From contig WARS01003068.1 in assembly GCA_008933995.1 (NCBI GenBank), positions 1 to 64,000 on the forward strand: 64,000 bases of DNA, in the 5' to 3' direction. This stretch comes from Datnioides undecimradiatus (lineage: Eukaryota; Chordata; Actinopteri; Lobotiformes; Datnioididae). Of this stretch, positions 22,300 to 63,963 are shown piece after piece. Both the position numbers and the translations under genes were made by a program. The stretch's first letter is position 1. The number at the start of each line of letters is the position of its first letter. The notes under the pieces were generated by a model. It saw only the letters and a list, made by a program, of their open reading frames with translations. It was not told the origin of the DNA and searched no databases.

Positions 22300-23614
22300 A
22301 AATGTGTTTTATTAAGAAAAATAGAAAAAAAGATGAATTCACCAAACTAGTGCTTTAACACACTCACACCCACATGCAGGTGCAAACAAGTACGCTCATA
22401 GGTCCAGTGCAGTTTATCTCTCAACCAGTTAAAATGTTCTTCCTACTGATGATTTGCATTTACATTTCAGCTAAAGACAAAAGAGAAGACATGCTTCATC
22501 ACAAACATGGCTACAGTATATGGTCAAATGAAAGATTTTTATGCAAGATATGTAAGGCTCACTATGACACTAACTGCAAATAAAAGGAACCACCACCAAA
22601 ATTCAAACCACAGGGCTGGACATCGCTATGTTGACATTAAATGGTTCTAATCAAAGATAAGCTCAGCATTATATTTTCAATATTGTCCTCTGTGTGTTGT
22701 ATGAATTGTCCATCCTCACTCAGTTTTTAACAACATGGGAATTTACATCAAATTTATACGTTCTAAGTTGTCTTATTGGGTTTTCAAAGCAATAAAATGT
22801 CAATTTTGAAATTCTTTCTCTAGCAAATTAAAGGTAGAAATCCTTAATAATACAATTCATCCCTGCCCTCCCTAAACTGAATACACTAAAGGTACCCTGT
22901 AGCCCTTCTTGATCTTGTATGACCAGTAGCTTAGTACCGTGTAATATATGTTTGTTTCAAAAGCATCAGCTAGATGTTCCCACATATCTAACATCATTGA
23001 GTCAGTTCGTCGACTTTAGCTCTCCTTACTTGTCTGTTTCAGCATTTACCACAAAAATATACCCAACTTCACAGACCAGCAAACTGACTTCTGCGGTTGG
23101 TCTCCATTTAAAGAGAGACACATGAAAAAATGATCTCTAACCTGCAGTGCTTGGTCCTCTCCACTGTCATTTTGGCTGTCTGTGAAATAAACTAACAGAC
23201 TTAATGGGATTGATCTCGCAGAAGTGATGGGCGCAGTCAGCTAGCATCAACTAGAAGCACTCACTATGCGTAAGATGCCAAAGGTCCCCCACCCTGCAAA
23301 ATCACAGCAATTTAGTATCCTGCTGCAGTGACTTAAGTCATTGCAGTTCATCTGATCTGATCTGATCATTGTCACAATCACTATCAACTGCTAAACAAAA
23401 TCAGTACATATAGCATTTTTAATCAGTTTCCCAAATTAAAGTCTAAACAGAAGCCTTACACATTGTGTGTCCAACATTTCCCAGGAAAACAGGGCCTCCA
23501 GCCCTTTTTTGTGGGTGTCACAATCTATAAAAACTCTCATAATATGTTGGCAATTGCAATTTTGCCAATTCAGTTTGGGCAACAGTTGTTCATACTGCTT
23601 CAAACTGAAAGCAA
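22300..23614 (-). other. probable 3' UTR of desmoglein A
   Basis: AT-rich, ORF-poor stretch directly after the stop codon of desmoglein A. Candidate signals on the minus strand are ATTAAA at 23418-23423 (about 195 nt past the stop) and AATAAA at 22308-22313 (about 1.3 kb past the stop). Which one is used cannot be told from the sequence. Confidence 0.4.
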
Positions 23615-26600
23615 TTACTGTTGCTTGCACTTTCCAGAAGGGCTTTTTTGACCTTGAGGAGTCTTGTTGGTGTCTTTTTTACTCTTTCTGGATTTGTTTT
23701 GTGGCGTTTGGCTGATGACTGTCTGAAGTTCTGCAGGACTCACTTGACCACCACTTGCTTCAGCCCCATGCATTTGATAATGAGGTTTTGACACAGCCTC
23801 TGTTAAACCAGTTTTCCTCACAGTGTTTTGGCCTAACACCACTGCTTCTTCAGGCTCATTTACACTTTCTGTCTGAGCATGCTGACCAGACTCCTCAGCC
23901 ACACCACCCATTGCAATAAAACTTGTCTCTGCTGTGCATGGGTCTGTTTCCAAAACTGAAGATGTCTTCTTCCCCGCTTCAATCTCTGAATAATGTACTG
24001 ATGATACCTGGCCAGATGCATTTTCCAATCCCTTACTTATCTCTAGGTCAGTGACTTCTGGTTTATCCTCTTCCAAAGAGAGATCTCCACACTCACTTTG
24101 TTCTATTTTAACTATGTCTGTATTCTGGTATTCAGACTGAGCTGTTTCACCTTCACCTAATTGTGCAGATGCCTCTCCCTCACTGAACATAGAAACCTGT
24201 CCTGTGGCTACCATGTATGATCTTATTTCCTCTGATAACTCAACAACATCATCTAATCTCTCAATGTTAGCACCCTGTGCTAACTTTTGACTAGCAGTAT
24301 CTTGTCTCTCAGGAATATCCAGAATTAGATCACTTATCTGAGAAGAGTCATTTCCTTGCCTGTCCTGATGTGTAGTAACTTTAAAACACATTTCTTGAGT
24401 TTCAGTCACCGCAGATGTTGCCGTTTGATTCATCTCCAAACAGTCAGTCTCTGAGCCAGATGTCTCTTCTAAGATCTGGTAAGAATTAATGTCTTCTTCC
24501 TCTGAGTGAGAACTTGCACCTGATATGTCTTTAGCACTTTCAACAGCCTGGTCATCGGTGATGTTTTTAATTTGCTCTAAAGGTAATGATGAATTCTCTT
24601 TTTCTCCATCATGTACATTACCTGAGCACACAAGATGACCCTGCAACTGAGGATTTCTTGGTGCACCTTCTCTTTCATTCCCATCATCTGAGTCATCAGA
24701 AATTTTCTCAAACTTGCTCATTTTTTGCTGCATGGATGGCAAATCCTTCTCTCCATCACTTACACTGTCATCTAAGATCACTGTATTGTCAACTTGAGAA
24801 ACTGTAATGGATGCATCTTCATTTTCTTCCAAGATGCTGGATGTTTGCTGTAAAGGTGACACTTCCTCCTCCAAAATGTTTACTCCATCTCTCATTATGG
24901 CTTCTGAGATGAGTATATCTCCTAGTGAAGGTCCTCTTCCTGATGCACCTTCTATTTCAGTCACCTCGTCTTGGTCGTCTGTGATGGTAACGGTTTGCTG
25001 TCTTTGTACTGCCACTATCTCCTCATCAGTATCAGAGATTAAGGTGTCATCCTCTTGAGAAGTCATGTCTAGTGTACTCTCGTCATTTTGGTCATCTGAG
25101 AAGTTTTTCTGTAAAAGTGATGTTACAATATCCTTTTCAACATCATGTACGTTATCTGAGCACATAAGATAATCCTGCGACTGAGAACTTGTTTCTGATG
25201 CATCTACTCGTTCACACTCTTCATCTTGGTCATCTGAAATGCTCATTTCTGTCTCTATGGATGGTATCTCTTTTTCTACATTAGTTTGGCAGTAATCAGA
25301 GATGGGCTTTTGATCCAACTGAGAAACTGTGGGGGAGACATCTTCATTCTCACTGTCTTCATTTTCATCTAAGACGCTGGATGTTCGCTGTACACATGAC
25401 ATCTCTTGCTCCACAATAGCCTTCCCTTTCACTTCGTCTTTTATTTTGGCTTCTGGGATGAGCAGATCCTCCAGGGGAGATCCCCTTCCTAATACAGCTT
25501 CTCTTGCTGTCTCTTTCTCTGGGTCATCTGTGATGGTTACATTTTTCTGAATGTGTAATGACCCTACATTTACAATCTCCTCATCATTGTCTGAGATCAA
25601 AGTATCATCCACTTGAGAACTTGCGGTTTCATCTGCAATCTCTTTATCTTGCTCATCTGAGGAGCCTATATTTTTCTGTAAAGGTGATGTTATGACATCG
25701 CTTTCAATGCCGTGATGAGCCTGCAACTGAGGACTTCTTGGTGCATCTTCTCTTACACTCTCTTCATCCTGGTCATCTGAATAGCTATTTTCTTCTTGAA
25801 CTGATGTTGCCTCTTTCTCTCCATTACTTGGACAGTCATCTGAGATGGGAATATGATCCACTTGAGAAGCTGTATGGGAGACACCCATGTTTTCACTGTC
25901 TTCATTTTCATTTAAGATTCTGGATGTTTGTTGCAGAAGAGCCTTCGCCTCTTCTTCTGAGAAGAGCAGAGGAGGATTTCTTCCTAATGCAACTTCTGTC
26001 TCTTTATCTTGGTCATCTTTGATGGCTACAATTTGCTGTATGTGTAATGCCCCTTCCTCCACAAACTCCTCATCGTTATCAGAGATTGAGGGTGATGCAT
26101 CTTCTCTTACACTCTCTTCATCCTGGTCATCTGAATAGCTATTTTCCTCTTGAACTGATGTTGCCTCTTTCTCTCCATTACTTGGACAGTCATCTGAGAT
26201 GGGAATATGATCCACTTGAGAAGCTGTATGGGAGACACCCATGTTTTCACCGTCTTCATTTTCATTTAAGATTCTGGATGTTTGTTGCAGAGGAGCCTTC
26301 TCCTCTTCTTCTGAGAAGAGCAGAGGAGGATTTCTTCCTAATGCAACTTCTGTCTCTTTATCTTGGTCATCTTTGATGGCCGCAATTTGCTGTATGTGTA
26401 ATGCCCCTTCCTCCACAAACTCCTCGTCGTTATCAGAGATTGAGGGTGATGCATCTTCTTTTGCACTGTCTTTATCTTGGTCGTCTGAGAAGCCATTACT
26501 TTGCTGTAGTGATGACACAGTTTTCTGCACAGCAGCCTCATATTTCTCTTCATCAGTAATGTTATCAACTGAGATGAACTCATCCTCAGTTAGAGAATGT

Positions 26601-29147
26601 ATGCTCAATGCATCCTGTCTTTCAATGTATGCATCTTGGTCATTCAAGCTTCTCAAACTCTGCTGTATATTGTCCATCTGTGGTTGACTAATTTCTTCTG
26701 CCACTGAAATCAAATGTGAATAACCAAGGTCTTCTTCCTCTTGGTCAGTTAAAATAGGGCTCATAGTCTGCAATGATGTCTGTACTTCATCACCCACAGT
26801 ATCGAGTCCCACTTCAAAATGTAACAGTTGTTCCTGCTCATCCTTAACTGCGTCATGTGCATTATCAGGGACAGTACTCATTTCGTCTATGTGATGTTCT
26901 GCCTGGATACTATCAGAAATGGAAATAACCTGATTTGTTTTTATTTCCAGGTCTGAATCAGCTTTCTTTGCTGGTCTGAAATCTTCATCCAACTCCCTTC
27001 CACTTGGATCTTCTGTGACTTCATTTAATTGGGGTTCTGACCCAAATTCAGAGTTTTTCTCCTCTGGACCTTCAGCCATGCTGAGCTGAACAAGTTTTTC
27101 GTCCACTTCTTCTTGCAAAGATGCCACACTTTCCTCTGTGCTACCATGTACTTGATTATCTACAGTGTTGATTTGTTCAGAATTAGAAGAGACATCTTCT
27201 CCTTGAGGAAGGAGGGAAGTTGATGTGTTTTCATTGTCCGTAATAACCAAATCAGTGACATCAGCTGCAGGAAGGAAATCTTCTGTGCAGGACATTTTAG
27301 TGATCTTAGACATATCTTCTCCTTCTTCTTCTGATTGGAGAGGCGTAGCTTCTTCCTTTGCATCCTCTTGTAGGTCATTTTCATCGACTGCAGCTCCGTC
27401 TTTCTCTACACATGATTTCTGCTGTACATGTGGTCCTGGTAATGGTTTTACACTATTTCCCTCAGAATTTAAAATTGAGTGTTCTGATTTTTCGGTTGGA
27501 TGCACCTGGATATCCTCATTGTCCTCAGATGCACTTTGGGTCATCTCACTAGGCTCCTCATTATGCAATGTTGAGAGTTGCTGTGATGTATAGGTGATCA
27601 CATCTTCTGATTGATTTGCATCTGTATCATCACGCATGTTCTGAAATGGATCTCTGTCGTCCTCAAGCAGATTTTTCATCATGACCTCTTCCTTTGAAGT
27701 CAAATCATCATCAGTGGTCTCAGCAGTAACAATACTATTTACAACATTAAAGGTATTGTCTTCCTTTGGTAAATCTTTATGTGCTTTGGAAATACGACCG
27801 GTATCCACTGTTTGCTCTAATGGAGTAATTCCTTGTGACTGGCTGACATGCCTAATCTCAACTGGATTTATCCCAAATGGCCAAATTCCAGCCTGAGTGA
27901 CTTCTGGCTTCACTGCTACCACATTTCCCATTGCGATATTTGGCTGCCCAACACCAACTCCCAAAACGGTGGCTGGCCTAAACCCTATTTGCCCAGGTTG
28001 CCTAATGCATGCTTGCCCTAAATTTCTATTTAGTGTAACTACACCCCCCTGTTTAGTAACAGCATGTTGTGGCAGAATGCCAAACACACCCCCATGGGCT
28101 ACTGGGCCTAATACCCCCTGAGGGGCAGCAGCCTCTTTTACCAGGATAACACCTCTTGGCAAATTGCCCTGAGGTGAACCTGGATCCATCTCTTCTACCT
28201 CACCCGGACTTCTGTTATCCTTAACCAAAACGTAATTACCTTCAGTATTTGGCCCTTTAATTTTCCAGCCATCCACAGGAACTGGGCCCTGAGATGCACC
28301 TGGGCTCACAGGTAGCAACAGGGTGGGGTTGACTGAACTTGTGGGGTTGGCGAGGGTTGTGGGGCTCTCAATGCCCTGGATAACTAGCCCAGAAGGAGAG
28401 CCTTGGGATCCACTGATTACGAGTCCAGAAGAAGGACTCTGGGGCCCACTGACCACATACAAACCTGGGATATTGGCTCCAAGGACCCTATCTGCCAGCA
28501 AAACTGTGTTCTGAAGCTGTGGTTGAACTACATAATGCATGGGCTGTAATACAGAGCTGGTAGTGTAGTAAACTGGCTGCTGCTGTAGCATCACTGTCTG
28601 AGTTTGACGGGGCAGAGTAGCAGAATGACTCATACTAGAGGATTGGCTGATGTTGGTAACCTTGGAGCGAGGAAGTGTCATGGATGGCAGTGCAGTACAG
28701 ACAGATGATTTGGAAATGTTAGTAGATGACATGACTTCCCGTGTATTTACACTGGTATGCTGTGTATCAACACTTTGCCTAATTTTAGGCTCAACGATGG
28801 CTTCAAAAGTACCCAAAGTGGTTTTGACAGCATCTGCTCCTTTTCGTGTCAGGGAGGGTTTTGGTGTTGGAGTAGGAGGGGTACAGACCTCAGCTAGAGT
28901 CTTGAACTTTGGCCCAAGGTCATTCAGGAACTGCAGGTCATTGTCGGAGTCCAGCAGGCTGCAGCAGCCCACTGAACCAGCAGGGGAGCCCTGGCCCTCA
29001 AAATCATACACCAACAGACAATCCTTCACTGGCACCGGAAACCCAGCTTTCTGTTTAGGACAAAGAAAAAGCACAGACACTGGAGATATTTGTATGTGGA
29101 AGATTTGGTGAAAGAACAGCTGTATGAACTGTGCCTCTCTCTCTCTC

Positions 29148-29182
<35 letters not shown>

Positions 29183-32100
29183 TGTGTATGCTTTATGCTC
29201 ATGTGGTACCTGAGAGTAGTAATCATTGAGGAAAGCATCAGGTAGGGCCATATCCTCCTCAAACAGAGCTGTCGTACGTTGGACACCAAGTGGCTGCCTG
29301 CTGAACGTGGCACTGCCATTGTCATGATTGAACAGCTCCCTTGAAAACCTGTAGGCGTTGTCAACTTCCATCAAACTTTGGCTGGTTTCCTGAAACTGCG
29401 TAGATTCACCATACATTGTAGCTGTCTGATGAGTTTCTGTCATTTTTGACTGAACGGTGTTAAAGTTTGGTGCTGATGCCTTCTCAACCTTCTTTTGGTT
29501 TCTCAACATCAAAGGGACACTTTGAAGTGGCACATCCTAAAAAACAGAAGAAATTAAAATATGACATTTAAATTGACTTTCATTCATTGACTTTGACTTG
29601 AGGATGTGGGTGTCATTAAAGAATATAGGTCACATTGGCTCCCTTAAAAAGCAGACAAAACTGTCAGCCAACCTTATCCTCGCCTTTGCCTTCAGTGTGG
29701 TAGGATATGAGGTGTTCTTTGGCATCAAAGGGTAGATCGCTAAATTGGTCAGGAAAGATAGTGTCTGCTCCTCCACACTGACAGAACAGTAGAAGGAGAG
29801 GGATGACTGCGGAGAATGGAAACATTTTTTGATGAATGGAAAGTAAATAAATTGTGTAAAATGTATTTTTTTTGCCCTTTATGTCAACATTTTCTAACTG
29901 CAACAAACACACAAGCAAATATTAAATGTTTTATAGTACATTAAATATCAGCACTTCATAATACGAGGTGCAAACAACATGTCTTTAGATGACGTCTGCT
30001 GTGCCCTAACAACAGTAGTCTTTTCAACAACAGTTGAAAATCCCCCAGTGTCAAAGAATGAAGTCGGTGCATTACGTCGGAAGGGCAGGCTGGTTGTTTT
30101 TCCAGGGATTCGCAGGGTTATGTAGGGATAAGACTAGATTCTAACTGTCAGCTAAATCTGAACTTAATCTGAGTTAAAACTTAAAGCTAAACTATGTAAC
30201 CTGTGTGTTTTACAGTATATTATTAAATCAGTGTGACTGGGATAGTGTGTTTGCCAAAGCACAACTCACACAGCAGTAAGCACATTGCCATTAGCAGCAG
30301 CCCAATGGCTGGGGCAGAGAGCTCAGATGAAGTGGTTCCTACTTTGGCTGTCCTTAACCTGCAGTCATCTGTTTCCACACAGGTACAAACATCCACAGTT
30401 AGAACCTCATCAGCAGGGCAGGACAGACCCTTTGCATCAGCCACCTTCACTTGTAGCTCGTACACTCCGGGCCATAGTTCCTCACTTGAGTGAAGAGCTG
30501 CAGTTGTCTCTGGAGACAAAAAGGAATAGAGGGCTGTCAGACTTAACTTGGATTATCATTATTAATATTAGCTGTAACTTAGCAGTAATACTAATAGTAC
30601 ATGCCACTGTCACAGGCCCATCCAAGAGACTTTGTCCTCATTACAGTGAAGGTTTTAAACTAAATTCAGTTACTTCCAAATGCTCTTGTTTTGTTTGCAC
30701 ATTCAAATCCAAACTCTCAAAACTTCTTCTCAGATTTAAGACATAAACACGGTATATGGAAAAGATTAATCTTAAAAAAAAGATCTTAATTTGGAATTGG
30801 CTGTCATATTTGTAGCTTTATACCTCTGCATTACTTATTGACTTAAGCTTTTTAGTAATTAGTAATTAATATTTTTCAGTGTAGGCAATATAATCCTCAA
30901 CCATTTACACAGTGACAAGCTCTGGCTAAATGAAAATGAACACAGTAATCACTAACGTCACTGATGCCTTACCACAAGTACATTTTCTTACCATTGATGA
31001 CTTCTATTTCCCAACTGCCTCTTGTCCCATCAGGTATGATTGTGAATGTGAATGGAGCAGCATTGGGGCTAACGTCCTCATCAAAGCCGGTAACATAAAC
31101 AGTTTTTTTATCAGTGCAGAGGCTGCTGTGAGTGGTGGTCAGGGTGGGACAGTGGTCATTGGAGTCAATGACTTGAATGGCTATTGTTCCTGTAGCTGTC
31201 TTTGATGGCATATCTGAGGATGACAACAACTCTGTTAGTTAAACAGCTCAGTCTGTTCGGCCAATGTCACGAAGATCCACTATGTAGTGTAGAGTCAGTA
31301 GTGATCATCACTGAAGGAAATACATGATGGTTTGATCTGACAACAACGTTGCTTTTACACACATCTGAATATTCCTCAATTAAATTATTGTCTCGATACC
31401 AATATCAGTGTGTGTTCTGTCAGGTTGTAGGAAGGTCTGGCAGTGGATGTACATTTATTTTGCTCTTGGGCTGACACACCTGGAATTACAAAGTGTTTTT
31501 ACAAGTTCTGTCAAGAGATCAGTGTGCTTCATTTTATTAAATGACCTCTGGTAATTACAGTTATGAACTGCTCATCTAACTCATAAAACAAAGGTGATAA
31601 ATCATCCTCAGAGAAGAAGTGTTGAATTGATTAGAGAGCAGCCAAGGCAGCGGCTTTAAGAGGAAAGAAATGAAGCATTACTGGTGGCAACAAACAAAAA
31701 CAGTACAGAATAATAAAGTACAAATGATATTACCTTTTGTTATGGCAAGAATCTTGGCAATGTAGGTACCGTTTACCAAGAACGGTGACTCTCTATCTGG
31801 TTCCTTGTTGAGTTTGATCTCAGCCGTCTCTTCATCGATTGTAAACCAGTTATCTGGATCAAAGGCTTTAACATAACTGGAGCATGACAAATATGTCAGA
31901 AAGAAAACCAATATGTTAAGAAAAATAAAAATATACAGCAGTGAAATGGTCACATCTGGTTTGAAACAGTCACTTATCTTGCAAAGTATTACGTGAGATG
32001 ATGATGTTGATGATTATGATGATGATGATGTCTACACATATGTCTCTATGAGTATATAGTTTAAGCCAGGAGGTGATTAGCTACACCTAGCATAAAGACT

Positions 32101-35100
32101 AAAGGCCAAGGAAACAGGTAACCTGGCTCTTATGGTTCAACATTTCGGTGTTAACTTGAGCCAAAGACTCTTCCTTCTATAAATAGTTTATCATTGACTT
32201 TTTTTTTTTTTTTTTTTTTTACAAGTTTTACAATTATACATTAAATATCAACAATCTAATTTCATTTTTAGGGATTGTATCACGAATTGAAAGGTCAACC
32301 ACTTTGGTCTGTGCTTAAATGATTTAAAATAGATGTCGATGACTTTCCTACCAGCTTCGCCTGCACTTTGTGTTTAGTTCTTTCCTTAACAGATATTTGC
32401 AATAATAATATGTCAAACATCAGTGCCTCATGAGAGCCCAGCAGAACTTTTTGTTAACTGCAGCTTGACTAACCTGACATCTTCAGCTACTTTTCCTGTG
32501 TCTGGATCGACAGCAGCAAACACTGTGAGCACACCATCCTGAGGTTGATCCTTTGGATCTTCTGATACAGGAACAGTCTTGGTGTCAGGCATGAATGCTG
32601 GACCTTCTGGCAGATTGTTCACTGCAATCTTAATAGGATAGCTTTTCCCTGGACTATCTGGCTTCGGTTTTGTCCCTGGTGCTGGTTTAAGTCCAATACC
32701 CGCTCCAGTCATAACTCCAGGGCCAAGCCCAGCCTCAGACTTGAGTCCTGCCTCCAGGTCAGCGTCCGACCCAACATTTACCCCCGCACCCACACCAACT
32801 CCAACTCCAACTCCAGCCCCAGCTCCAGCTCCAGCTGCAGCTCAGAGGATCAGCCAGAGGATCACCTTCTCCAACCGTAACATCCACATTCATCAATACA
32901 GCTTCACCCTCCACAAAAGGAGCCACATTCTTGATGATCAAGCCAAGCTCAAGATTCTGGACTTCTTCAAAGTCCACAGGCTGTTTGTCCCAGGGTGGAG
33001 GGGAAACAAGGTTCAGGGAGACGACATCAGACACAATAAACCAATGTTAGGGATCTGCCCAACAATGCCTACAGTAATCAAAATAAAAAATACATTTAAC
33101 CACCAAACATAATAAGACACATTAAATAAGTCTTAATTACCTTAACAAGCCACAGGATTCCCTCATTGGTTTCTTTGTCTGTCTCAATACAGAAAAGATT
33201 ATCCTCATTCCCTTGGGCGATTGTAAACACAGTCAGCCAGTTGTCTGTGTGTTCAAGGTCTTTGTCCAGTGCTTTGATTCTCATCACAGATACATCTTTA
33301 ACATTTTCATCCACCGCACCAGTGTACTGCAAGCACAACAAGATTTAAAACATTCAACCCACAGTCAAAGTTGCCCTGTTAGTTCTGCACCAGCTGTACA
33401 GTTTGCCTACAGTTTCCTGTGCACAGAACATATGGATCTTGGAAAACAGACATCAGCTGAAAAAACATTAAGAATGAGTTATATTTTGAATATAAGTATT
33501 GAAATCTTCTAAAATCATCTGAGTATCCAAAGACCTTTGGTGTCACTCTTTAAATGGGTATTTCAGATTTTACACAGCAAGGTCAATTTACTTATCATTC
33601 TTGTTATTACATCATATTACATGGAAATGCAGCATTTAGTGTTTATAGGCTTTGAACTTGTGGTCCATAGTGGCCTATAGTCCATGTATAGTGAACTATA
33701 AGCCTCGACCTCTCAATGTAATCGTTAAAGATCTTTAGAATTTACATAGTGCAGTGTTGTAGGTTTATGTTGCACATCTATCACTATTTCACCTCTTCGC
33801 TGTCTCGTTTCCTGAATTTGGTTCCTTTGACTGCTGTGTGTGAGGGTGTGTGCGTGTGCTGTAAAGGCTGTATTCCTGACCTCAGATTTTTCCAGAATAG
33901 GAATGTTGTCATTGATGTCAAGGACCTTGATCTCCACAGTTCCTGTCCCCGTTAGCCCCCCTGGTGCCCCTCCCAAATCGGTCCCCTTTATAACCAGTTT
34001 GTAGAAGTCAATAGTCTGTTGGAGGATAGACAGCAAAACAATGTATTGACAAAGGCTTATTAGGTAAGGTAATCACCATCACTGTCATAGGCAATCCTGT
34101 TCAACAACACCATTGGTACAGTTTGGATACACTATAATTAACTTTGAAGTTAAAAGGGAAAAGCCTTCAGATGGGGCAGAACTCCAGTGGAAGAAATCTC
34201 TCTCCAGGACACAACCACGTCATGCCAGGGGCCAGACCAAAGCTGTAGGTTCACAAATGTCCAGATATAGGAATATGCATGCTCTCAGATTTGGAAAGCC
34301 TTACCTACACCTGATTCTGTTTATAAATCTCAATAAAAATGTGCTGCAAATGAAAAACATGTTGCAGAAAGACAAAGCAAACATGTTAACAGCTAACACA
34401 CTGTAAATGCAGAAAAACCACACAAAGTCCAGAACTACAGAAAAACACTCCAAGATACCGAATTTAAATAAAAAGCTCCAGCATGTGTTGTGTGTGCTTG
34501 ATGTGCAGTGAGCAGCAGCCTCACCTCTCTGTCCAGTGTGGCCTCCTTGACGTACAGTTTGCCTGTCTTTTGATCTATAGAGAACATGTGACCTGCCCCT
34601 TCTGGCTCCTGACTGGCGATGCTATAGGAGATCTCTGAATGAATTCCAGGTGCATCGTCATCTTTCCCTGTGATCTGCATAACAAAGGTTCCTGCAGCGG
34701 ATAACAACAGACCATCTCAATAGAATCAAGTGACTGTTGAGAGGACCTGTTCATGTGTACAGTGTATCTGTCCTGTGTTTACATACTGTAGACTTTTTTG
34801 ACAACATGTATGAGAATATGAAAGAATAATCAGTTCTGGTTGAATGAGGGACAAGGAACCCAGTCATGAAGTCAGGGGTCAGAACCATAAAATTCTCTGG
34901 TTTGAAAAAAAGCTGCAACGGTGCCCGCTGCCCCTGTGGGTGATAAAACCTGGTAAAGTGTGTTACAACTTTCCTCAGGCTGCTGTTCTAACACACGGAT
35001 TTTTTGGCCCTTGTCCTCAGACAACCTGAGTTTGCCACTGTAGCAGGTGGATGGAGAAAATAGATGTCTGAAGTCCTGCAGTACCTTTTTTGCTTGCCTC

Positions 35101-38100
35101 TGTGATGTTTCCAGAATGTAGCTGAAAATAGGGGGCATTGTCATTTTGGTCCAAGATTGTGACAGTCAGGGGAATGTTGACCTCTGCTGTGGATCCATTT
35201 CTGTATTTGGCAATCCCTGTTAGCTGCATGAATTACATGGAGATAAGAGACAGGATGAAACCAAGTTAATGTTATATTGAACATAAATGTCTCACATTTG
35301 AAGGCCTTGAACAAGCTGTAACTCGAGATTTCTTCTCTGTAGATAAATGTGCATTTGAGGCTTTCTTCAAGACACCGCAACATTGAATACAGACTGAGTA
35401 GCAGAGATGAAGAAGACTACTACATTCCATTATGTGACACATGTTTGCAGATGCACTTCTGGAGCCCTGCCCATGCATATATCAAGCTCTATGCAGAGGA
35501 CTGAAGGATGCTACGAATCAGAGCCCAAACAGTGACTTAGCAGTGAAGAACGCTAGTTTAGGTGCAGTCATGTTTTAGTACTTGGCTTATTTAGAGAGAG
35601 ACTTACATTGTAGGAGGGATATTTCTCACGGTCTACAATATCAGTGATGCGTACAAATCCAGTGTTGTGATCCACCACAAAGAGGTTGTAGGGTGGCTTG
35701 TCAGCTCCTGGCCCAGATAGGTAATACTCCACCTTTGCATCTTTGTCTTTGTCCGATCGGATCTGACATCAGTGACAGAAAGAGAATACTGACTATAGTT
35801 GGAAGCCAAAGGAACAGCAGGTGGCCTGACTGTGACGTCATGATTTCAGCTCTCCATAACATTAAGGTGGAAATTGCCACATTGCCTCAGCTGCACTATA
35901 TATTGATAGATGTTAAAATAATGGAAACAGGGCACATATGTAAAACACAGAGTATATGTACCTATCCACAACAGTTACTGCAAAGTGCTCTGCAGCAATA
36001 CAAAATACTGTAGGGCACTATGCAAAATAGTAGATGAAACTGTCAAAGGAAACCTGTGAAGCAGGTTGTATTCTCTCAAAACAGTGTTGGGGTGAGCAAG
36101 GTCAACAATGAGCTGCAGGGGGAGATGGGTGGAGATGACTCATGGCAGGTGAGTTGATCCAGCTGGTGCTCGTTGATTAATCACTCTCTCTTCTTTCCAC
36201 TTCTCTTGCTGTTTTTGGACAAAGCTCTTTGACTTTCTAACCCTGTCCACCTGGGAACTGGGTCTGTTCCTGGTAGGCCGTCATGTAGAGGTGGTAGTCT
36301 GAACTAACCAGGGCAGGAAAAGTGGTTGTTATAGGCAAAATAAACAAACCTGCACTGGTTTCACAAGTAACAACCATTACTGACATTAAATGTCTCATGC
36401 TTATGCCTGAGTGCATGGTACGTGACATTTAGCTGTGTCCCGCCTGTTACATTAGCAGGTGAAAAGTACTCAGAGCCAGCTCTTACCAGTGAAAAAGGAG
36501 TTTTGTTTGGCATTTTCACACTGTCAAAACAACACATATCTGGGAATATGAAATATAGTTTATTCCTGGGTCAATCTCCTTATAATGGTGCGCCTGAGGA
36601 CTGGAACTGACAGAAGCGGTAAGCAAGTGTTAAAGTGTAACAAGTATAAACAGGCAAGCCAGTGACATGACAGAAACCAGTTCTTTGTCTTTATGTGAGA
36701 GGTTCATCTGTGTAGGCACCTTGCCAGCCTTCTCATGATGCCGCCACATACTAATTGTGGGAAATAAGATTTTAATGAGCTAAAGTCAAATGACCTTGGC
36801 AATGAATTTCCTTTGAGTGTAGTCAGTGTTCTCCATCAGCTTGGCAGGAGGAAGGATCCACTCTCTCTTCTTCCTCCTCAGTGTCTTTGGCCTTCTCTCT
36901 CTTGCCTCAGCACTGGACATCTGAAACCAAACCACAGGGGTGCATCTCACTTTTTAATAGAGACTGGAACAAACTGTTTGCACTATGCTGTGTGTACTCT
37001 GTGACCTGCCAGCCTTGTTGAAGACATATTTCATGCTGAAATTGAGGCACATTAGCTGACGAATGGCAGAAGAGTTTCACTGTTAAGACAAGATAGAAGA
37101 TCGCCTATAAATGAAGAGATAAATCTTCAGGTGGGAAATCACTGGGAGGTCTCTTTAAAGTGCTCTACCTCATACCTACTAACTGTGTTTAGATGTCAAC
37201 ACTAACACTTAACTGTGATTAAGCAACACTTTGTCACTTAACTGGCATTTAAACTTGCTTGTAATACAGCTGCAATTGCTGAAATTACTCAAATAGATTT
37301 AAATATCTATAGTATATATAAACTAACCATTATTACCATGATTCATGCATTTCTTGTTCTAATATCAGGTTATTAATTAAGTCATATAAAACATATAAAT
37401 ACATAATATATATGAATTTAATGTATCATGAATAAATCACACATTAATTAGCAAGGTTATCAGGATAGTATATGGATGTACTATAGTATATTAAAATAAA
37501 ATATAATCATGTGTGTGTGTGTCAGCAGCAGCAGCAGAGTCTGTTGTTTGATGGCAGTGAAATGTGTAATCAGTGGATAATGTACAATATGCTCAGACAG
37601 GCGGTAAATGTGCGATTAGTGGCTTCATTTAACACAGCATGGGTGTGATGAAGTGGGTGTGGACGGAGCTGGCAGCGTGGGTTTGACTGATGCACACCCA
37701 CCTGTGATACCAAGTGTCTAAACCCCTGTGCTAGCAACTTTCTGTAATTCCTTTAAAAGCCTCCAGCTGCTGAGAAGGGATCTTCTCAACATGTAGATGT
37801 TACCTCTCACCTTATCTGGTGCATCTCATTTTGTTTTGAAAGCCACAGTTTTGTGAGAAAGGCTCCAACTGAAATCTACCACCAGACACAGACCCAGCGG
37901 ATGAAAAGGCAGCGTCTATGTGGTACGACATGTGGACACGTTACATCTACATGGAGCTTTTTTTTCTTCTGTCTTAGACGCTTCAAGACAAGATGTACAG
38001 TAGCTGGTGGTGGGGGTGGACAGAGCTGGTTCAGAGTGTCTCCTACTCTGTCAGAAATGACTTTTGGTCCAGAAAAACTGTTAAATCCTTTTTATTTATT

Positions 38101-46200: not shown

Positions 46201-49200
46201 TGTAGAAGCTCAACCCAAAGTCTTCTCTGCTGAGTTCTACAAACAGCTATGGGATATTTGTTTCCTTTCTTTTAAAGAACACTGACAAAGAAAAATGATT
46301 CAGCACTCAAATGAATACAGAATACTGAACTTTAAAACAATCAGGTGATAAGGTGCCATACCATTCGAAGGCTCAACGCTCCACTTGCCCTGACTCTCCT
46401 CTGCCACAATGCTGAAGCTGAAAGGGGCTGAGTTCGGGTCTCCATCCTCATCCACCGCCGTGATGTTTATGAGTTCAGTGTCTGAGCAGACGTACTCAGC
46501 ATCGCTGGTCAGTGAGGGGCAGTTATCATTTACATCCCCCACCTGCAATGCTATCGTTCCTGTAACCATCTTGGGAGGTATTTCTGTGGGAATCAGGAAA
46601 TAGAAGCGCTCTGATTAAAGGCAGGCTCACTGCAAACATGAGCTTCTGGGGACAACTGTCTACATTTCAGATCATACCTGCTATCAATATAACAAGCTTA
46701 CCGTCGGTCAGACTCAGTATCTTAGCGTAGTAAGTTCCATTAACCAAGAACGGAGACTCTCTGTCCGGGTACTTTTGAAGTCTAATCTCAGCTGTTGTCG
46801 GGTCAACCAACAGCCAGTTGTCGGGGTCGTAGCCTTTAGCATATCTGTGGGAAAGAGTGTGAAGCAACTCTCAGAACTTTCAGATTCCAATAATCACAGC
46901 CACATATTTCAATTGATTTCTTTACCTTACTGCAATGAATTGTGGGAAATTAGCAAAACAGTGCAACAACATCCATAAATGTACATTCTGATGAACAAAT
47001 CCAGTGACGAGGCTGACTCAGTAACGTGTTTGTCATGAATCCTCCTGACTTTGGTGCTGCTCTGACTTTTCCTTCACTGCCACCAACAGGTTCAGTCTTG
47101 CTTTGAAGAGTAAAATGTCTCAGCAATGGTGCAGTCATTCGTGTCCTTTGAGAGCTTTGTGACTTTGATGTGTGTGTCTAACTGTTTGGTTTTATTTACA
47201 GTAAGGATTACAGCCCCAGAGAGAGTCGTGTTAAAAAGCCACTAATATCAAGTGAAAGAAAAACGTGCGTTTGTTAGAGACTGTAGTCCGTTAGTGTGAG
47301 GTCTCTTATGACTGAACATTTATTCTGCTGAAAGCCTGAAAGTTAAGCGTGACTGCATCTCACCGAACGTTTTGCGCTGGTTCTCCAGTGTCAGTGTCAA
47401 CGGCTGCGTAGACAGCAATCACCTCCATTAGTGGACTTTCCTCTGGTTGCTCAGACACTGAGACAGGCTTCACTGCAGGCTGAAAGGCCACGCCCTCAGG
47501 CTCATTCAGCACCGCAATGTTCACTGAGTAACGTTTGCCTTTTTTTGGTCTCTTGTTCTTGGAGGTCTTTTTAGCTGCGCCACCACCTGCACCAGCCCCA
47601 GCAGCATCCACCACACCAGACCCAGCTGCAAGTCCAACATTTGCCCCTCCGCTACCACCTCCGCCTCCGCCTCCTGCTCCTCCTGCATCCCCATCTCCAC
47701 CTCCCCCTGCTCCTCCATCCCCATCTCCTCCTCCTTCTCCTCCCTCTCCTTGACCCATGCCATCACCGTCTCCATCCCCCACAACTGGGGCAACATTGGA
47801 TACTACCACCCCCAGCTTGATATCAGGATTTTCCTCAAAATCAACAGGCTGAAAAGAAACAGAGTTGAGCCACATGAGTTTACTCTCACAAAACATTGTT
47901 AAACAAGTTATCTTACAGGAACACATTGTCCAGCTGTAGTCCTTACAAGCTTGCAAATATAAGTTTCAGCTGTTCAGGTGCTGCAGTGTAGGCAGAATTA
48001 CCTTTTCAAGCATCAGAACACCTTCGTTGGTTTTGGGATCAGTCCTGATGCTGAAAATTCCCTGTTCGTTTCCCGTGACGATGTGGAAAACAGCCAGCCA
48101 GTTGTCGGTCTTCTTCTCGTCAGCGTCCAGCACTTTGAACCTCATGACCTCCTTGTTGGCCGTGTTCTCCACAATGCTACCTGTATACTACACCAGCAGA
48201 GCACAGACAATAAGGAGTTTAATAATATATAAAGCTATTAAATGAAAATATTAATTTGACTATTATCATAAAGTTGGACATTTGGGATCATCAGTCATGG
48301 TTTTTAGTTGAGCACCTTGTTTTGGTGGTTTCCTGTTTTATTTTGAAAGGTTTCACCTGTGTCTCGTTTGCCTGCACTCCCCAGTTTATAAAAGTTGTCA
48401 CTTCCTTTGTTCTGTGGTTCGTTGTTGGTGAGTTAATGTGCCTTCCTAGTGTCCTTGTGTTTTCCCTCGTCTTCCCTCGTGTTCCTTGCATATGATTGGA
48501 TTTATGTTTTTTGTGGGTTTTTGCCTGTTTTCTGGACTTTGGGTTTTTGGACTGTTTACCTAGTTTGGACCCAGCCTGCCTCGACTAACCCTAAGCCTAA
48601 ACCCAACAATAAACTAAACTCTCTGCTCCTTGTGTCTGTGTCTTGTGTCTTGTGGCTCCTCTTATTTGCTTTCTATTGGGAAGATTAAAGCCTTCTGAGA
48701 TTCTAAGCTGAGCTAACTCACTATGAGTTATAGTCACTGACACTGTTTCATATGAGAACATCATCATCTGTGGAAACAGAGTCAGAGCTCATACCTCATC
48801 TTTTTCCAGGGTAGGTCTGTTATCATTGATGTCCACCACTTTGATATGAATAGTGCCAGTGCCTGTGTTGCCTCCAGGAGCTCCATCCATATCACTTCCT
48901 TTAACTGTTAAGATGTAGGAGCTCTGTGTCTGTGGACCGCAGAGAGACCAACGCAGGTGGTTTACCATCAGAGAGAAACGAGCTCAGCAGTCCTATCAAA
49001 CATCTACAGCCTTGTTAGAGTTACGGCACATGACACACTCTTCTGCCTGACCTCTCTGTCCAAAGTGTTTTCTTTGACGTAAATGGATCCAGTGTCTCTG
49101 TCTATGTAGAAAAGGTCCGTGCCATCGGAGGGCTCCTGCTTCACAATGCTGTAAGCGATCTTTGAATGGGAGCAGTTGGCCTTGTCTGCATCAGTGGCCG

Positions 49201-58002: not shown

Positions 58003-58430
58003 AATGAACTCCTGTCCATGCCTCATGCCAGAATAAAGAAACACTGGATCAATATGGCAGAAGAAAAGACCCATTATTGTTAAGACAGTATGTGTTTGAA
58101 ACCATAGTCTAGATTGCAGAAATATATTTTTTCTATTACTATGAATGTAATGTATCTTAACCATCGGTGTAATTGTTTCAATAAACAACTAGGTCAAGTA
58201 ATGCATGAATACAGAGGTGGTTGTTTGGATGGATATGATGATGTCAAGTAGAAGCTGTAGCATGGACAAGCACATACATGTAGTTTCATTCCTTGTTTAA
58301 CTGCAGCAGCATACCCTCCACCAATAAACTGACATGCACATGCAGAGTGTCTCTCATAAATATACCAGAGGGAGACTGCCTTGCCAAACATTTCTCCTGC
58401 ATTTCTACCTTGCAGCAGGTGGGGCTGTGC

Positions 58431-61400
58431 TCATATGGGAGTAGATGAACCCAATACGTTGCCCTGAGAGCCAGTGGATGTGCTGCTCTTGCTGTAGATG
58501 ACGCTGTGAGAGCCAGAGATGGCATTCTTCTGAGACAGACCTCCTACTTCCTGAACCAGCTGCCCTCCGCTGCTTGTTGGCCCTCCAACCACCACAACTC
58601 TCTGAGATCCCGAAAGCGCCCCCGACTGAAGAGTGCCCCCTGGGACAAGGCAGGTTTGGCTTCCCTTTAGCAATTTCAAAGTCCCTGCAGGGACCTTGCC
58701 CTCCATAACCATCATGGTCTGGGAACCAGAGAGGTTGCCAGTGTGGATCAGGTTGGCACCGCCCTCCTGTACCCCACTTCTCTCCACCAGCATCATACCA
58801 GGTGCATGGGCCTGTCCACCAGATATCATTGTCTGCCCCTGAATGACCACACCTTGGGTTGGGCTGGTCTGGGTGCCATTAACCAGCACCATGCCCTGCA
58901 GACTGGGAGCTGGTGCCTCAGAGCCAACAGCACGGTGTTCTGGAGCCTGGGGGCTGGACTGCGTGGACTGGCTGCAGCATAGGGGTGGTGGGCACATAGT
59001 AGGCGAACTGCTGCTGCTGCTGCTGTAACCCAAGATCATCTGGCCTGGATTTGCCATCCCTTTCTTCACTGGTCATCCCTTGTGTCACCGTGGCCGTGCT
59101 TTCCTTCACTGTGCAAGGGAATGCTCAGATGTCCTCCCTGACCACAGACTGCTCTGTTTTGGACCTGAGTTGGCTGCAGCTGGGGTGGAGGAGGCAGCTG
59201 TTGGGCAATCTACACTTGATATGAGCTCTGAGTGTTGATGGAGGGGTGGGCGAGGAATAGCCACGGCTTGACTTCACCCAGGATCTTCTTTCCTCCACAC
59301 ACTTCAGCCAGGGTCTTGAATTTTGGCCCCAGGTCATCGAGGAACTGCAGGTCATTACTGGACTCCAGGAGGCTGCAGCAGCCCACTGAGCCAGCAGAGG
59401 AGCCCTGGCCCTCGCAATCATAAACAGAAGACTGTCCTTTACTCAGGTTCTGGTTCCACTGTTCTACCTTCTGTTAAAAGACAAAAAATCATCACAAGGA
59501 GTTACCTTTTTGTTGACAGAGCACCATGATTTATTTTAACAGTTACAAATCACATTAATATTACCCGCAACACCACAACCTAATACCAATCACACAAATT
59601 AGTGTAAAAACAGCTGGTCCTAGAACATGTTCTTCAAAGGTTATGTTGAGCTTGTATTGGTATCTTCTTAACATACATTCATTTGGACAAGACACAAGCC
59701 AAACAAGTACACAGCTTGATTTTGTTCCTGACACTCTGATATTAAAGAAGTTTGCATTTGAGCTTTTATATCCTTTTCCTATTCAGTTTGCTTTTTTCGC
59801 ACCAGAAAAAATTGCGTCCAGGAAAAAGAAATGATTCTAACCTGAGAATAATACTGTTGCCGGGAAATTGGTCGGCAGCGCCATGCCATCATAAAATTTC
59901 TCCGCGTTTCCTGACTCCTAGCCCCCAAACTCAGGTAAAGAAGCCACTGCCACTCGGCACAGTTCATCATCCCCATGTGTGATCTCTGGCGGTTACTTGA
60001 AACCATCTTGATAGATGCCCCGGCCGATCCCATCCATAAATGACGAATTTCTGGAAATCCAAAGCTGCTGCAGGGGCCATTGCTGAAGTCTTATTAGTCA
60101 TGCCCATACCCATGGTGATCATATCTCCATCCATTTGTGTTGGCAAGTTCAGCAGTGGCACCTCCCTGTCACGTCAATGAAAGTTAGAAGAGTCAACAGT
60201 TATTCTGCTGTCGCGGGCAAATAATCCTTCTTGCAGCTTTCAAGCAGACTATCAGTATGTATGGCAAGACTCTTGTTCTCGACAGTGCATGTCACATGTT
60301 TAAGAGCAAATTTGTTAGCCGTGTTCTCTCCCTACAGCCCTCAGTCGCGATAGTTTATGAGGTGTGATTTGGTGTCAAAAGGCATCTCAGTGACCTGGAA
60401 GATAAACGCCTCCCACATTGGCAGAACAGCAACAGAGAATGACTGTAAGAACAACACTTTTGAAGGTATAACTTAATATTTCGATGTGAGCTGGAGTGGT
60501 GGCGGGACCCTAACATTTACATAGCACAATACAATTCTGGTGTTAGTTTATGCTTCCTCTCTCTCTTTCCCCCCAACCAGTCAGATGGCCCGTCACGTGA
60601 GAGCCAGGATCTGTCACAGATCACCAGCAGGAATGGAGTTAGACCATATATATACTTGCTATTAACTTTGTGTTGGAGTGTGCATGTTGGCATATCCTGT
60701 ATCTGTTTGAAATGTTGGTTGTGCATCACGCCTCGGAAATTAAGGTTTCACATATACAAGGTGCACTGTGCACATGAACAGTAGGAGCATTATAGAAGCA
60801 GTGCTTTTGATGTTTTTCATCACACAGAATAAAGAGAAACATATCCACTGCTGTCACGGTCACTAAATTAAGACATTACCTGTCAGAAAACAGCTTAATC
60901 TGCGTCAAACCCAAGTTTCATGTTGCATCACTTCCAGCAAATCACAGACAATGTGTTTAAAGGTTACATGACAGGACTTTGGTTTCTCCTTGCTAAGAGG
61001 TAAGAAACACAACTCTTTCAATAATTAATTCAAAGAAAAAGTAATCATTTTAATAGCATCTAAGCCCTCCTAGGCTTGTCTTAATGTTCTGTCAATTGAA
61101 AGTAGACCTGACTTTGTCATACTACTACTCCAGACTTTTAACTGCATATCTAGGAATTCGTAGACCTGGCTGTTTACGATCAGGACAGTCCTACCTATTA
61201 ATAAGATGATTATGTATAGTGTGATACAGTCTTCAAAAGACCTTCCATTTATTAGGTAACATCCTGTGTCTTCAGAATAATTATTTTAAGTTTTATGTAT
61301 TATAAATTATATTGATATTTTGGTCTTGTTTTCAAACAATCTCTGGCCTACCTGAACTTATAACTCAGCTCAACCTGTCTTGGTATTGTCTTGAACACAT

Positions 61401-63963
61401 AGGAGTCTAAAATTGAAGTGTTTGATCCACTGAAACCTTCTTTAGAATGAACATCCATCATATACGTGGTAAAGCAGCAGGCCCAGGAACAGCAATCCGT
61501 GCCTGCAGGTCCGAACTCTGCCGGTTGCTGGGCTGACCGTTGGCACCTCTTCTTCCCCTCCATCCTCACAGAACAAGCTTGGACCTTCCTTTCTCTCTAG
61601 TTCTGGACAGGCATGATCCTGCTCATCCTTCACCATAAATTCCACCTGGTAGATACCTGGCCACATGGACTCCTGGGCCCTCAGGATGGCTGCCGTGTCT
61701 GCCACCAGCCAGACAAATACATGAAAAGATGCAGGAGGTCAGTATGTTTTATTGTCATCAACAAGTCAATGTCGTATTCCTGGGCAGGATGGAGGATGCA
61801 TGAATTTATCTAAATCTGTCTGACATCATTTCCAAATTTTGATATTCCCTCACCATTGGATGCTCCACCTGCCATTTTTGCCCTCAGTGCCCTCTGGTAT
61901 GATGACAAAGTCAAAAAGGTGGTCCATTAGAAAGACATCCTCATCTACAGGCGTTCGATAACAGAATCATCTGTAGTGCACATAGTCTGGACATTGCTGG
62001 TCAGGGGTGGGCAGTGGTCATTGAAATCTTCCCACCTGGATGGCGATGAATTTGCGGTGTGTGTTTTGTCACTCCCATCTGTTTTGGAAGAACAGGAAGA
62101 AGAACAGATGATTCTCAAATTACTACTTACTACACACATTTATTTTTACACCAAGAGCCCTTGTCTGGTATGTGAAACATCAAAAGCTGCAGCAGACATA
62201 CAGGGGAAGATCGTACCTTCTGGAATGCACAGCACTTTGGCATAGTATGTCCCATTCTGGCATGGAGATTCTCATCAGGGATCTTGTTGAGTTTGATCTC
62301 AGCTTTGTCTTTTGGATTAGATGGTTAGCCAGTTGCCAGGATCTGAGCCTTTGGCATACCTACAGCAGAAACCAGCTCTGTCAGTTGTTGTCACTCATGT
62401 AGAAAATAGACAGTATGGTTTAATTACACAGTCTTTTCATGTGTGCGTATCAGCATGCACTGACCTGACATTCTCAGCTGGTTTTCCAGTGTCTCCATCT
62501 GTGCAGGGAGTGGCGGGCAATGACATCATTGATGTTGAGAAGGGGAATTAGCCTCTCACCAAGAGATGGGAATAACTTTGACTTTGGGGTCCGTGCGGAC
62601 CCTCAGGCTGATTCTTCGCGTTGATTTTGACTGGATAAGTTTTAATGTGCTGCTTGGTGCCAGATGATCCTGCAAACCAACTTCCCTGCTCCAGATGCTC
62701 CACTAGCACCTCCCCCCTCCCCCCTCCTCCACCTCCTCCACCTCCACCTCCTCCTCCACCTCCACCTCCACCTCCACCTCCTGCCCCACCCCCTGCTCCC
62801 CCTCCAAAACTTATACTAGTTCCACTACTGGTCCCATATCCATATGGTGGAGCCTTGTTTCTGACGACTACTCCCAGGTCAAGGTTCTTCACATCCTCAT
62901 AATTTACAGCCTGTGAAATGGCACACAAAAACTCAATGAACACAGACTGTCGATATACCAATAACAGATATTAACAATCATCAGCTGGAGAGAAAATTTT
63001 GTCCACATCGGTTGCAGGAAGTTAGGACCTGTGTTGGGAATTGGGTTCAACGGGGACTGGGGCTTATTTCCAATTCTGATTGCAGTTTTCAAAGGAAGAA
63101 GTCCAGTATGGGGGCATCAGTACTGCAGGACTACGAAAACAATTGCTTCTTTTGGCTTATAAGTAAGTCACTGGCCCATGTGAGGGTTCAAGTGTCTATC
63201 AATTGGTCAGTGGTAAAAGATATAAAAGCATTCTCTAACATTTTGATCTGTAAAATTCCAGTGTGTGGCAGAGGCACAGCCTATAACTACTTCACAGGAC
63301 AAGCCTGTCAGCTTGACTTTGTCTGTTTTAGTGTGTATTTGCCATGCGTCATGATGCTGGTAAAGATAATTCATCCGTACATTCATTATTTAAGCCCCTA
63401 GCATCCGTTTGATGACATTTTGCCATGTATGGCATGAAATTCTTGATGTGTTTTTGTCTTTAGTAATTTACAATTAATTATCACACTGAAGACGACTCAT
63501 TATTCATTAATACATAATAAAGTCTTCCATGTGTATACATTTATATAAAGCCAAATCCTGCACGGCCTTAAGAAGATCAAGGGACCTCCCGGGTTTCTGG
63601 ACAAATCTGGGTTCTTATATACCCATTGGTGATGACAATAAGTTGGCTCATGTTCTGATTTTATATCCTATGTAAACCCAGTTTCAATGCACAAAGGACC
63701 GGGAAATCAGGACATGAAGTAAATTTCTTTTCAATTAAATTTGCAGAAACAACACCATGTTGCACATTCAGCCGTACCTTGTCGAGCATCAGGATACCCT
63801 CGTTGGTCTTGGGGTCTGTTTTGATGCTGAAGTAGCCCGCCTCGTTGCCTCTGACAATGTCAAACACAGCCTCCCAGTTTTCTGTGCCCTCCAGGTCCAG
63901 GTCCTGTGCTTTGAGTCTCATCACCTCCACACCCTGTGTGTTCTCCTCAATGCTGCCCACATA
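58431..63963 (-). pseudogene. desmoglein C, 3' part, with many frame breaks (pseudogene or poor assembly)
   Basis: Third tandem desmosomal cadherin; the 5' end is outside the window. Probable exons, complement: 63778-63963 (exon 7), 62465-62910, 62217-62359, 61854-62088, 61466-61698, 60336-60442, 59842-60165 and 58431-59470. Exon 7 is clean and has the family length of 186 nt ([11 protein letters not shown] ... [18 protein letters not shown]). All later exons contain one-base gains or losses: exon 8 after KINAKNQPEG, exon 9 within LTI(N)PKDKAEIK, exon 10 twice, exon 11 before the membrane helix, exon 12 at the CQCG motif, exon 13 before QQYYSQ, and the last exon just before YDCEGQG. Correcting for the shifts, the protein text stays good ([41 protein letters not shown]). 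Splice sites mostly remain, though the ends of exons 11 and 12 are uncertain. Breaks that are nearly all small indels, with few nonsense substitutions, could be young decay or sequencing error. Confidence 0.65.
62700..62815 (-). repeat. glycine-coding (GGTGGA)n segment in desmoglein C exon 8
   Basis: Plus-strand CCACCT/CCTCCA units give a run of more than 20 Gly codons on the coding strand, following KAPPYGYGTSSGTSISF. Its position in the protein equals the glycine-rich stretches of desmogleins A and B. Confidence 0.9.

Follow-up and report, generated by a model that had tools for sequence, protein, structure and literature searches.

Does the last exon of a desmoglein gene in the fish Datnioides undecimradiatus, several times longer than its counterparts in neighboring copies, encode protein to its end, and what would such a tail do? 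The gene, here called copy A, lies on the minus strand of a stretch of 64,000 nucleotides (the window; positions 1 to 64,000 of contig WARS01003068.1, assembly GCA_008933995.1), on a contig that we abbreviate C251 and that carries three further desmoglein copies, B, C, and D. To our knowledge, the function of desmoglein tails beyond the plakoglobin site is poorly understood. Our analysis favors, with fair but incomplete confidence, the interpretation that copy A is a desmoglein whose last exon has gained a translated, intrinsically disordered, and strongly acidic C-terminal extension, which may act as a spacer or brush.

The last exon of copy A is a single open frame

Four features define the exon and its borders.

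23615..29050, minus strand: final coding exon of copy A, with 1,811 codons and a stop (5,436 bp) in one open frame
28883..29035, minus strand: catenin-binding intracellular cadherin segment (Pfam CADH_Y-type_LIR, E 3.8e-11), which aligns with PDB Desmoglein-2
29210..29536, minus strand: penultimate exon, 327 bp, assigned from AG/GT borders and phase
23418..23423, minus strand: ATTAAA hexamer resembling a poly(A) signal, 191 nt past the stop

Positions 23615-29536 of the minus strand form a single stop-to-stop open reading frame (ORF) of 1,973 amino acids, within which the catenin-binding segment was matched at residues 168-218. This frame takes in an intron, because the penultimate exon ends at 29210; the intron (29051-29209) carries a CA repeat. 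The acceptor of the last exon (cag, then AAAGCTGGG) is placed at position 29050, and the exon start lies directly 3′ of tgtcctaaacag. A first-pass annotation, made from the sequence alone, had described this exon as open to its stop over 1,811 codons, which is confirmed here; the two alternative frames contain 101 and 177 stops. Given the overall base composition of the tail, 1,365 codons would all be open with a probability of ∼10^-41.

The tail is acidic, and its middle part is built from repeats

Downstream of the catenin-binding segment, the exon can be divided as follows.

27790..28880, minus strand: linker and repeat-unit-like region rich in Gly, Val, and Pro, its first part (QPVYYTT, LQPMHYV) common with copies B and D
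23741..27712, minus strand: acidic extension, codons 446-1770 (1,324 codons, net charge -244), delimited by composition, with no paralogue match
24497..26668, minus strand: array of 17 repeat units of ∼43 residues each, from profile matches, the offset spectrum, and alignments A1 and A2
25739..26446, minus strand: tandem duplication of recent origin, 118 residues (354 bp) per copy, at 26446-26093 and 26092-25739
24491..25603, minus strand: older superunits P2 (25603-25046) and P3 (25045-24491), basis of the selection tests
23618..23698, minus strand: basic C-terminal tip of 27 residues, by composition

The Gly/Val/Pro-rich region (codons ∼190-420) resembles a repeat-unit domain. Its similarity to copies B and D is detected by tblastn up to codon 214, the remainder being assigned from composition only, and it contains a peptide pair at a 12-residue offset, found in a scan that was not aimed at units of ∼29 residues. 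The acidic extension that follows has a net charge per residue of -0.18 and a fraction of charged residues of 0.31, and the earlier description of an acidic tail with a basic tip is borne out by composition. No Pfam match was obtained in the tail. Matches to RPB6-like PDB entries (E 0.31-0.65, four of seven rows) were set aside as compositional.

The ∼1,300 residues had been described as repeats throughout. Their acidic character stands, but only codons ∼795-1518 score as repeats, with 17 units reaching at least 14.1 bits, whereas shuffles scored 6.3 at most; codons 446-790 and 1540-1811 gave nothing above shuffles in the repeat-profile search. The profile was trained on 13 units, so that the 17 comprise those 13, three from the duplicated stretch, and one that is wholly independent; this last unit (codons 795-836) scores 14.1 bits, or 16.6 with the middle piece alone, whereas 50 shuffles of the same piece did not exceed 6.3. 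The proposed repeat length of ∼118 residues was not upheld. It corresponds to one recent tandem duplication (8 nucleotide differences in 360, of which 3 are synonymous and 5 non-synonymous), while the offset spectrum gives an older, higher-order period of four units, often ∼181 residues (163-189). At the protein level, the other units share 51-58% identity with superunit P2. These patterns suggest that the middle of the tail probably grew via repeated duplication among the ∼43-residue units, probably by unequal exchange.

Frame and charge are kept while the sequence drifts

The superunits P1a, P1b, P2, and P3 were aligned as DNA with the frame ignored, giving six pairs. Aligned bases were in frame throughout in P1a-P1b (354/354), P1a-P2 (345/345), and P2-P3 (521/521) and nearly so in P1b-P2 (470/473). 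Indels were multiples of three in 7/7 cases for P1a-P2, 8/8 for P2-P3, and 9/11 for P1b-P2, and no indel separates P1a from P1b. Those of other lengths in P1b-P2 (1, 5) and in P1a-P3 (20, 7) are adjacent and sum to a multiple of three. Divergence was compared with two neutral simulations, one plain and one matched to the base composition of the tail. No stop is present in the older pairs, where neutral drift predicts 3.9-5.3 per pair (P 0.003-0.017), and 34-46 acidic residues are kept compared with ∼23-29 predicted by the composition-matched simulation (P ≤0.0015 in all six directions; for example, 41 against 28 expected and 43 against 29). In P2-P3, conservative exchanges are in excess as well (25 versus 13.7, P 0.001). 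The ratio of non-synonymous to synonymous divergence (dN/dS, Nei-Gojobori) is 0.42 (0.11-1.79) for P1a-P1b, 0.76 (0.44-1.32) for P1b-P2, 0.57 (0.36-0.88) for P2-P3, and 0.66 (0.40-1.14) for P1b-P3. Collectively, the frame-keeping divergence, the missing stops, and the kept acidity argue for translation, and the initial suggestion that so long an open frame is translated is thereby strengthened to a probable one. The same results argue that frame and charge are under stronger selection than the sequence itself, residue identity being only loosely constrained.

Several observations weigh against this reading. The two weaker pairs keep the frame less well: P1a-P3 has 327/329 bases in frame (2 out) and 6/8 indels in multiples of three, and P1b-P3 has 437/461 (24 out) and 8/13. 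The upper bound of dN/dS exceeds 1 in three of the four superunit pairs, and the recent 118-residue duplication holds too few changes for a dN/dS estimate of its own. Residue changes in the older pairs are no fewer than under neutrality (P 0.17-0.37), conservative exchanges show no excess in P1b-P2 (P 0.29) or P1b-P3 (P 0.51), and identity is nearly flat across codon positions (0.76, 0.74, and 0.69 in P2-P3; 0.78, 0.78, and 0.79 in P1b-P2). The pairs share members, and the tests are thus not independent. They span the repeat array only, leaving out codons 446-867 and 1521-1811; for the tail outside the array, the evidence is therefore its open frame.

These points lend themselves to a rival explanation in which the tail is translated yet merely tolerated: repeats would have expanded in a tail that was already disordered, selection would purge only frameshifts, stops, and harmful charge or hydrophobic patches, and the extension would have no positive role. 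dN/dS values of ∼0.6-0.76 whose intervals are wide, as many residue changes as under neutrality, and nearly flat identity across codon positions are all as expected on that account, as are the recent duplication, read as ongoing turnover, and a tail without a Pfam domain. However, acidity is kept much better than composition-matched neutral drift allows, and ∼1,365 extra codons have persisted through the divergence of the superunits (dS 0.34-0.52). We regard a tolerated tail as rather unlikely, and as the most serious of the alternatives. The extension also illustrates clearly how a probably disordered region can retain charge and frame as its sequence changes.

Copy A appears to be an otherwise intact desmoglein gene

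The upstream part of copy A was modeled from ORFs homologous between the copies, followed by fitting of splice sites and phase.

29673..36950, minus strand: upstream exons (EC1 to transmembrane and anchor), from homology to copies B-D, splice sites, and joined translation
36950-36795 (5′ limit provisional), 35762-35607, 35223-35085, 34691-34525, minus strand: first set of upstream exons
34015-33881, 33326-33141, 32980-32908, 32834-32474, minus strand: second set
31876-31734, 31213-30992, 30509-30270, 29806-29673, minus strand: third set
32835..32907, minus strand: putative 73-bp intron in the Gly-rich insert of exon 8 (gt...ag, phase fits)

In this model, a furin-type site, EC1, the cadherin ectodomain, a membrane span, the anchor, and the catenin-binding segment follow one another, and the sole stop of the joined translation is the terminal one. 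The motif preceding EC1 is what we take to be a furin-type site. Counted from the mature N terminus, the predicted protein has 2,595 residues. The upstream exons are open with GT-AG borders, and a Pfam scan of the protein found four Cadherin stretches (E 3.7e-56) in addition to the CADH_Y-type segment. Among the best 60 of 175 PDB matches to the first 285 residues, Desmoglein-3 and Desmoglein-2 are included, CELSR1 ranks top, and classical cadherins and desmocollins score like desmogleins. Desmoglein-2 is the best PDB match both for codons 1-445 of the last exon (E 4.4e-11, codons 8-212 aligned) and for the whole open frame. The ectodomain, the catenin segment, and the beginning of the tail together identify copy A as a teleost desmoglein resembling zebrafish Dsg-alpha and mammalian DSG2.

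The 73-bp stretch at 32835-32907 could be a new intron and otherwise would be a frameshift; its acceptor lies within a GCTGGA repeat. Copy A is thus predicted to be an otherwise intact gene if this putative intron is real. A break in the frame of exon 8, which follows when the intron is left out, counts against our interpretation and is the first argument for a second rival, that gene A or its tail is untranslated, either as a pseudogene or because transcripts end or are spliced out ahead of the tail. The frameshifting gaps of the adjacent copy C relative to copy D and the AATAAA hexamers within the last exon at 26945 and 25445 point in the same direction. Such an account would have to accommodate 1,811 open codons, a tail open against odds set by its composition (P ∼1e-41), superunits that diverged almost without frameshift and without a stop, and remaining exons of the model that are open and bordered by GT-AG (with a provisional 5′ end for the first exon). 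We consider it improbable.

The extension was found only in copy A of this genome

Three desmoglein copies had been noted in the window. These stand, and a fourth (D) follows on the same contig of 86,282 bases, making four tandem copies, with the last exon of copy C frameshifted relative to D; one more copy lies on contig C476.

C251:75633-76715, beyond the window: last exon of copy D, open and short, 360 codons
C476:2509688-2510788: further desmoglein-like last exon, 338 codons

Copies B, D, and C476 each have a catenin-binding segment, a QPVYYTT-like block (QPAMYYAAT in C476), and one large last exon. The last exons of D and C476 thus compare with 326 codons in B, counted on its frame, in agreement with the first-pass annotation. 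Codons 8-214 of the last exon of copy A align by tblastn to B and D with 44-45% identity, and the QPVYYTT/LQPMHYV block, already noted as common to A and B, also occurs in D in a variant form. Beyond this region, codons 421-1811 gave no tblastn match at E 1 in C251:1-84000 (minus the exon of A) or in 10 kb at C476, and gene A alone was matched by the tail or superunit in the 581-Mb assembly, in a search that scores best candidates only. Pairwise dS, computed from at most seven exons, is close to saturation for A-B (2.6) and A-D (2.4) and lower for B-D (1.5). For copy C, only two exons were compared, with values of 0.28 to D, 0.74 to B, and 0.99 to A. Gene A is therefore an old paralogue. The claim that the extension is lineage specific holds within this genome, where three paralogues with open last exons lack it and the best-candidate search of the assembly gave no further match, but the tail may be shared by many fish.

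An old C-terminal tip common to A and to B, D, and C476, ahead of which the tail would have been inserted, was considered and rejected, alignment scores being no better than shuffles (P 0.48-0.94). The tip of A has no significant similarity to the others, so the tips give no sign that an old tail grew from within. This dissimilarity would also fit acquisition of the tail from another gene through fusion or exon capture, which is very unlikely given that the tail has no Pfam match, that no other tail or superunit match was recovered among the best candidates in the assembly, and that the exon is continuous across the boundary. An assembly artifact, in which a repeat was wrongly joined or falsely duplicated on a rather short contig of 86,282 bases, is less probable still: one 354-bp duplication is 98% identical, yet a single frame runs throughout, and the other units are not false duplications because they share only 51-58% of their residues with P2.

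Of 21 gaps between the last exon of copy C (58423-59480) and that of D, 18 are not multiples of three, nearly all lying in the first half of the copy C exon; in the second half, 479 bp match D at 98% identity. This pattern may reflect a pseudogene, base errors, or gene conversion. Contig C476 also carries two more weak matches to the catenin segment, and its desmoglein-like gene could possibly be the counterpart of zebrafish Dsg-beta. Each of the four tandem copies has a Gly-rich insert in the equivalent ectodomain exon, and these inserts differ in sequence and length.

32474-32834, 47363-47965, 62548-62970, and C251:82409-82840: Gly-rich inserts of the tandem copies

A possible acidic brush at the inner face of the desmosome

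The extension had been called disordered, and this is supported as probable. An AlphaFold2 model of one superunit has a mean predicted local distance difference test score (pLDDT) of 51.8, with one 12-residue helix and no strand, and casein-kinase-2-like [ST]xx[DE] sites number 75, compared with 57.5 ± 6.0 in shuffles (0/500 as high). Both findings call for caution, as the low pLDDT rests on 3 sequences only and is weak, and the site count is inflated by the unit repetition itself. Together with the frame and charge tests, the superunit model suggests that the tail extension is probably both translated and disordered.

Two published observations bear on where such a tail could lie. The plaque model of PMC10312763 omits DSG1 843-1049 as outside the outer dense plaque, so a longer tail would reach towards the inner plaque. 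In addition, the title of a study cited in PMC10766750 states that the DSG2 C-terminal unique region inhibits internalization via tail-tail interactions. From these two points together we infer an acidic spacer or brush. The tail-bearing protein would be made and located in desmosomes, where, beyond the plakoglobin-binding segment, the tail could serve as a spacer or brush on the inner plaque face, carrying negative charge and open to phosphorylation. It might set cadherin spacing and clustering, and perhaps turnover, and basic partners might be recruited through charge rather than through a fixed motif. The tail could alter junction anchoring inside the cell and might change plaque thickness or partners, as the first-pass annotation had suggested. 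A more general proposal, which we put forward only tentatively, is that a repeat-generated polyelectrolyte domain is selected for length, frame, and negative charge, not for residue order, and would provide a tunable acidic brush at the inner desmosome face that differs between tandem paralogues of one fish.

Comparison with known desmogleins

No teleost or unusual desmoglein tail was found reported among the papers listed from the open-license PMC literature, as judged from titles and abstract openings. Sequence databases may already contain long predicted fish desmogleins that have drawn no comment.

Within the last exon of copy A, alignment with the PDB Desmoglein-2 sequence ends at codon 212. 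Mammalian desmoglein repeats are ∼29 residues long and not acidic, whereas copy A adds an array of ∼43-residue acidic units. As described in PMC10766750, mammalian desmogleins carry a repeat unit domain with 5, 6, 2, and 3 repeats in DSG1-4, respectively, plus a terminal domain; a long cytoplasmic tail past the catenin-binding segment and a variable repeat number are thus features that copy A has in common with them. Variable repeat number is already known from that source, while an acidic extension of about half the protein is apparently unreported in the literature surveyed.

Zebrafish Dsg-alpha, described in PMC3268089 as a precursor of 1143 amino acids, has a similar exon series, with sizes of 186, 143, 222, and 240 bp identical in copy A, and a Gly-rich ectodomain insert, as in copy A. 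This insert is called zebrafish-only in that report, but a Gly-rich stretch lying apparently at about the same place is not confined to zebrafish. The two genes differ in their last exons, that of Dsg-alpha being 1,044 bp and holding the repeat unit domain and tail end, compared with 5,436 bp and an acidic extension of >1,300 residues in copy A. The zebrafish report describes two desmogleins in all, on different chromosomes, in contrast to the four tandem copies found here, a picture to which copy A adds. Within the fish itself, paralogues B, D, and C476 differ from copy A by short last exons with no match to its tail, and ∼1,365 extra, mostly acidic codons beside short-tailed paralogues provide a natural comparison for the effects of a desmoglein tail on plaque thickness, clustering, and turnover.

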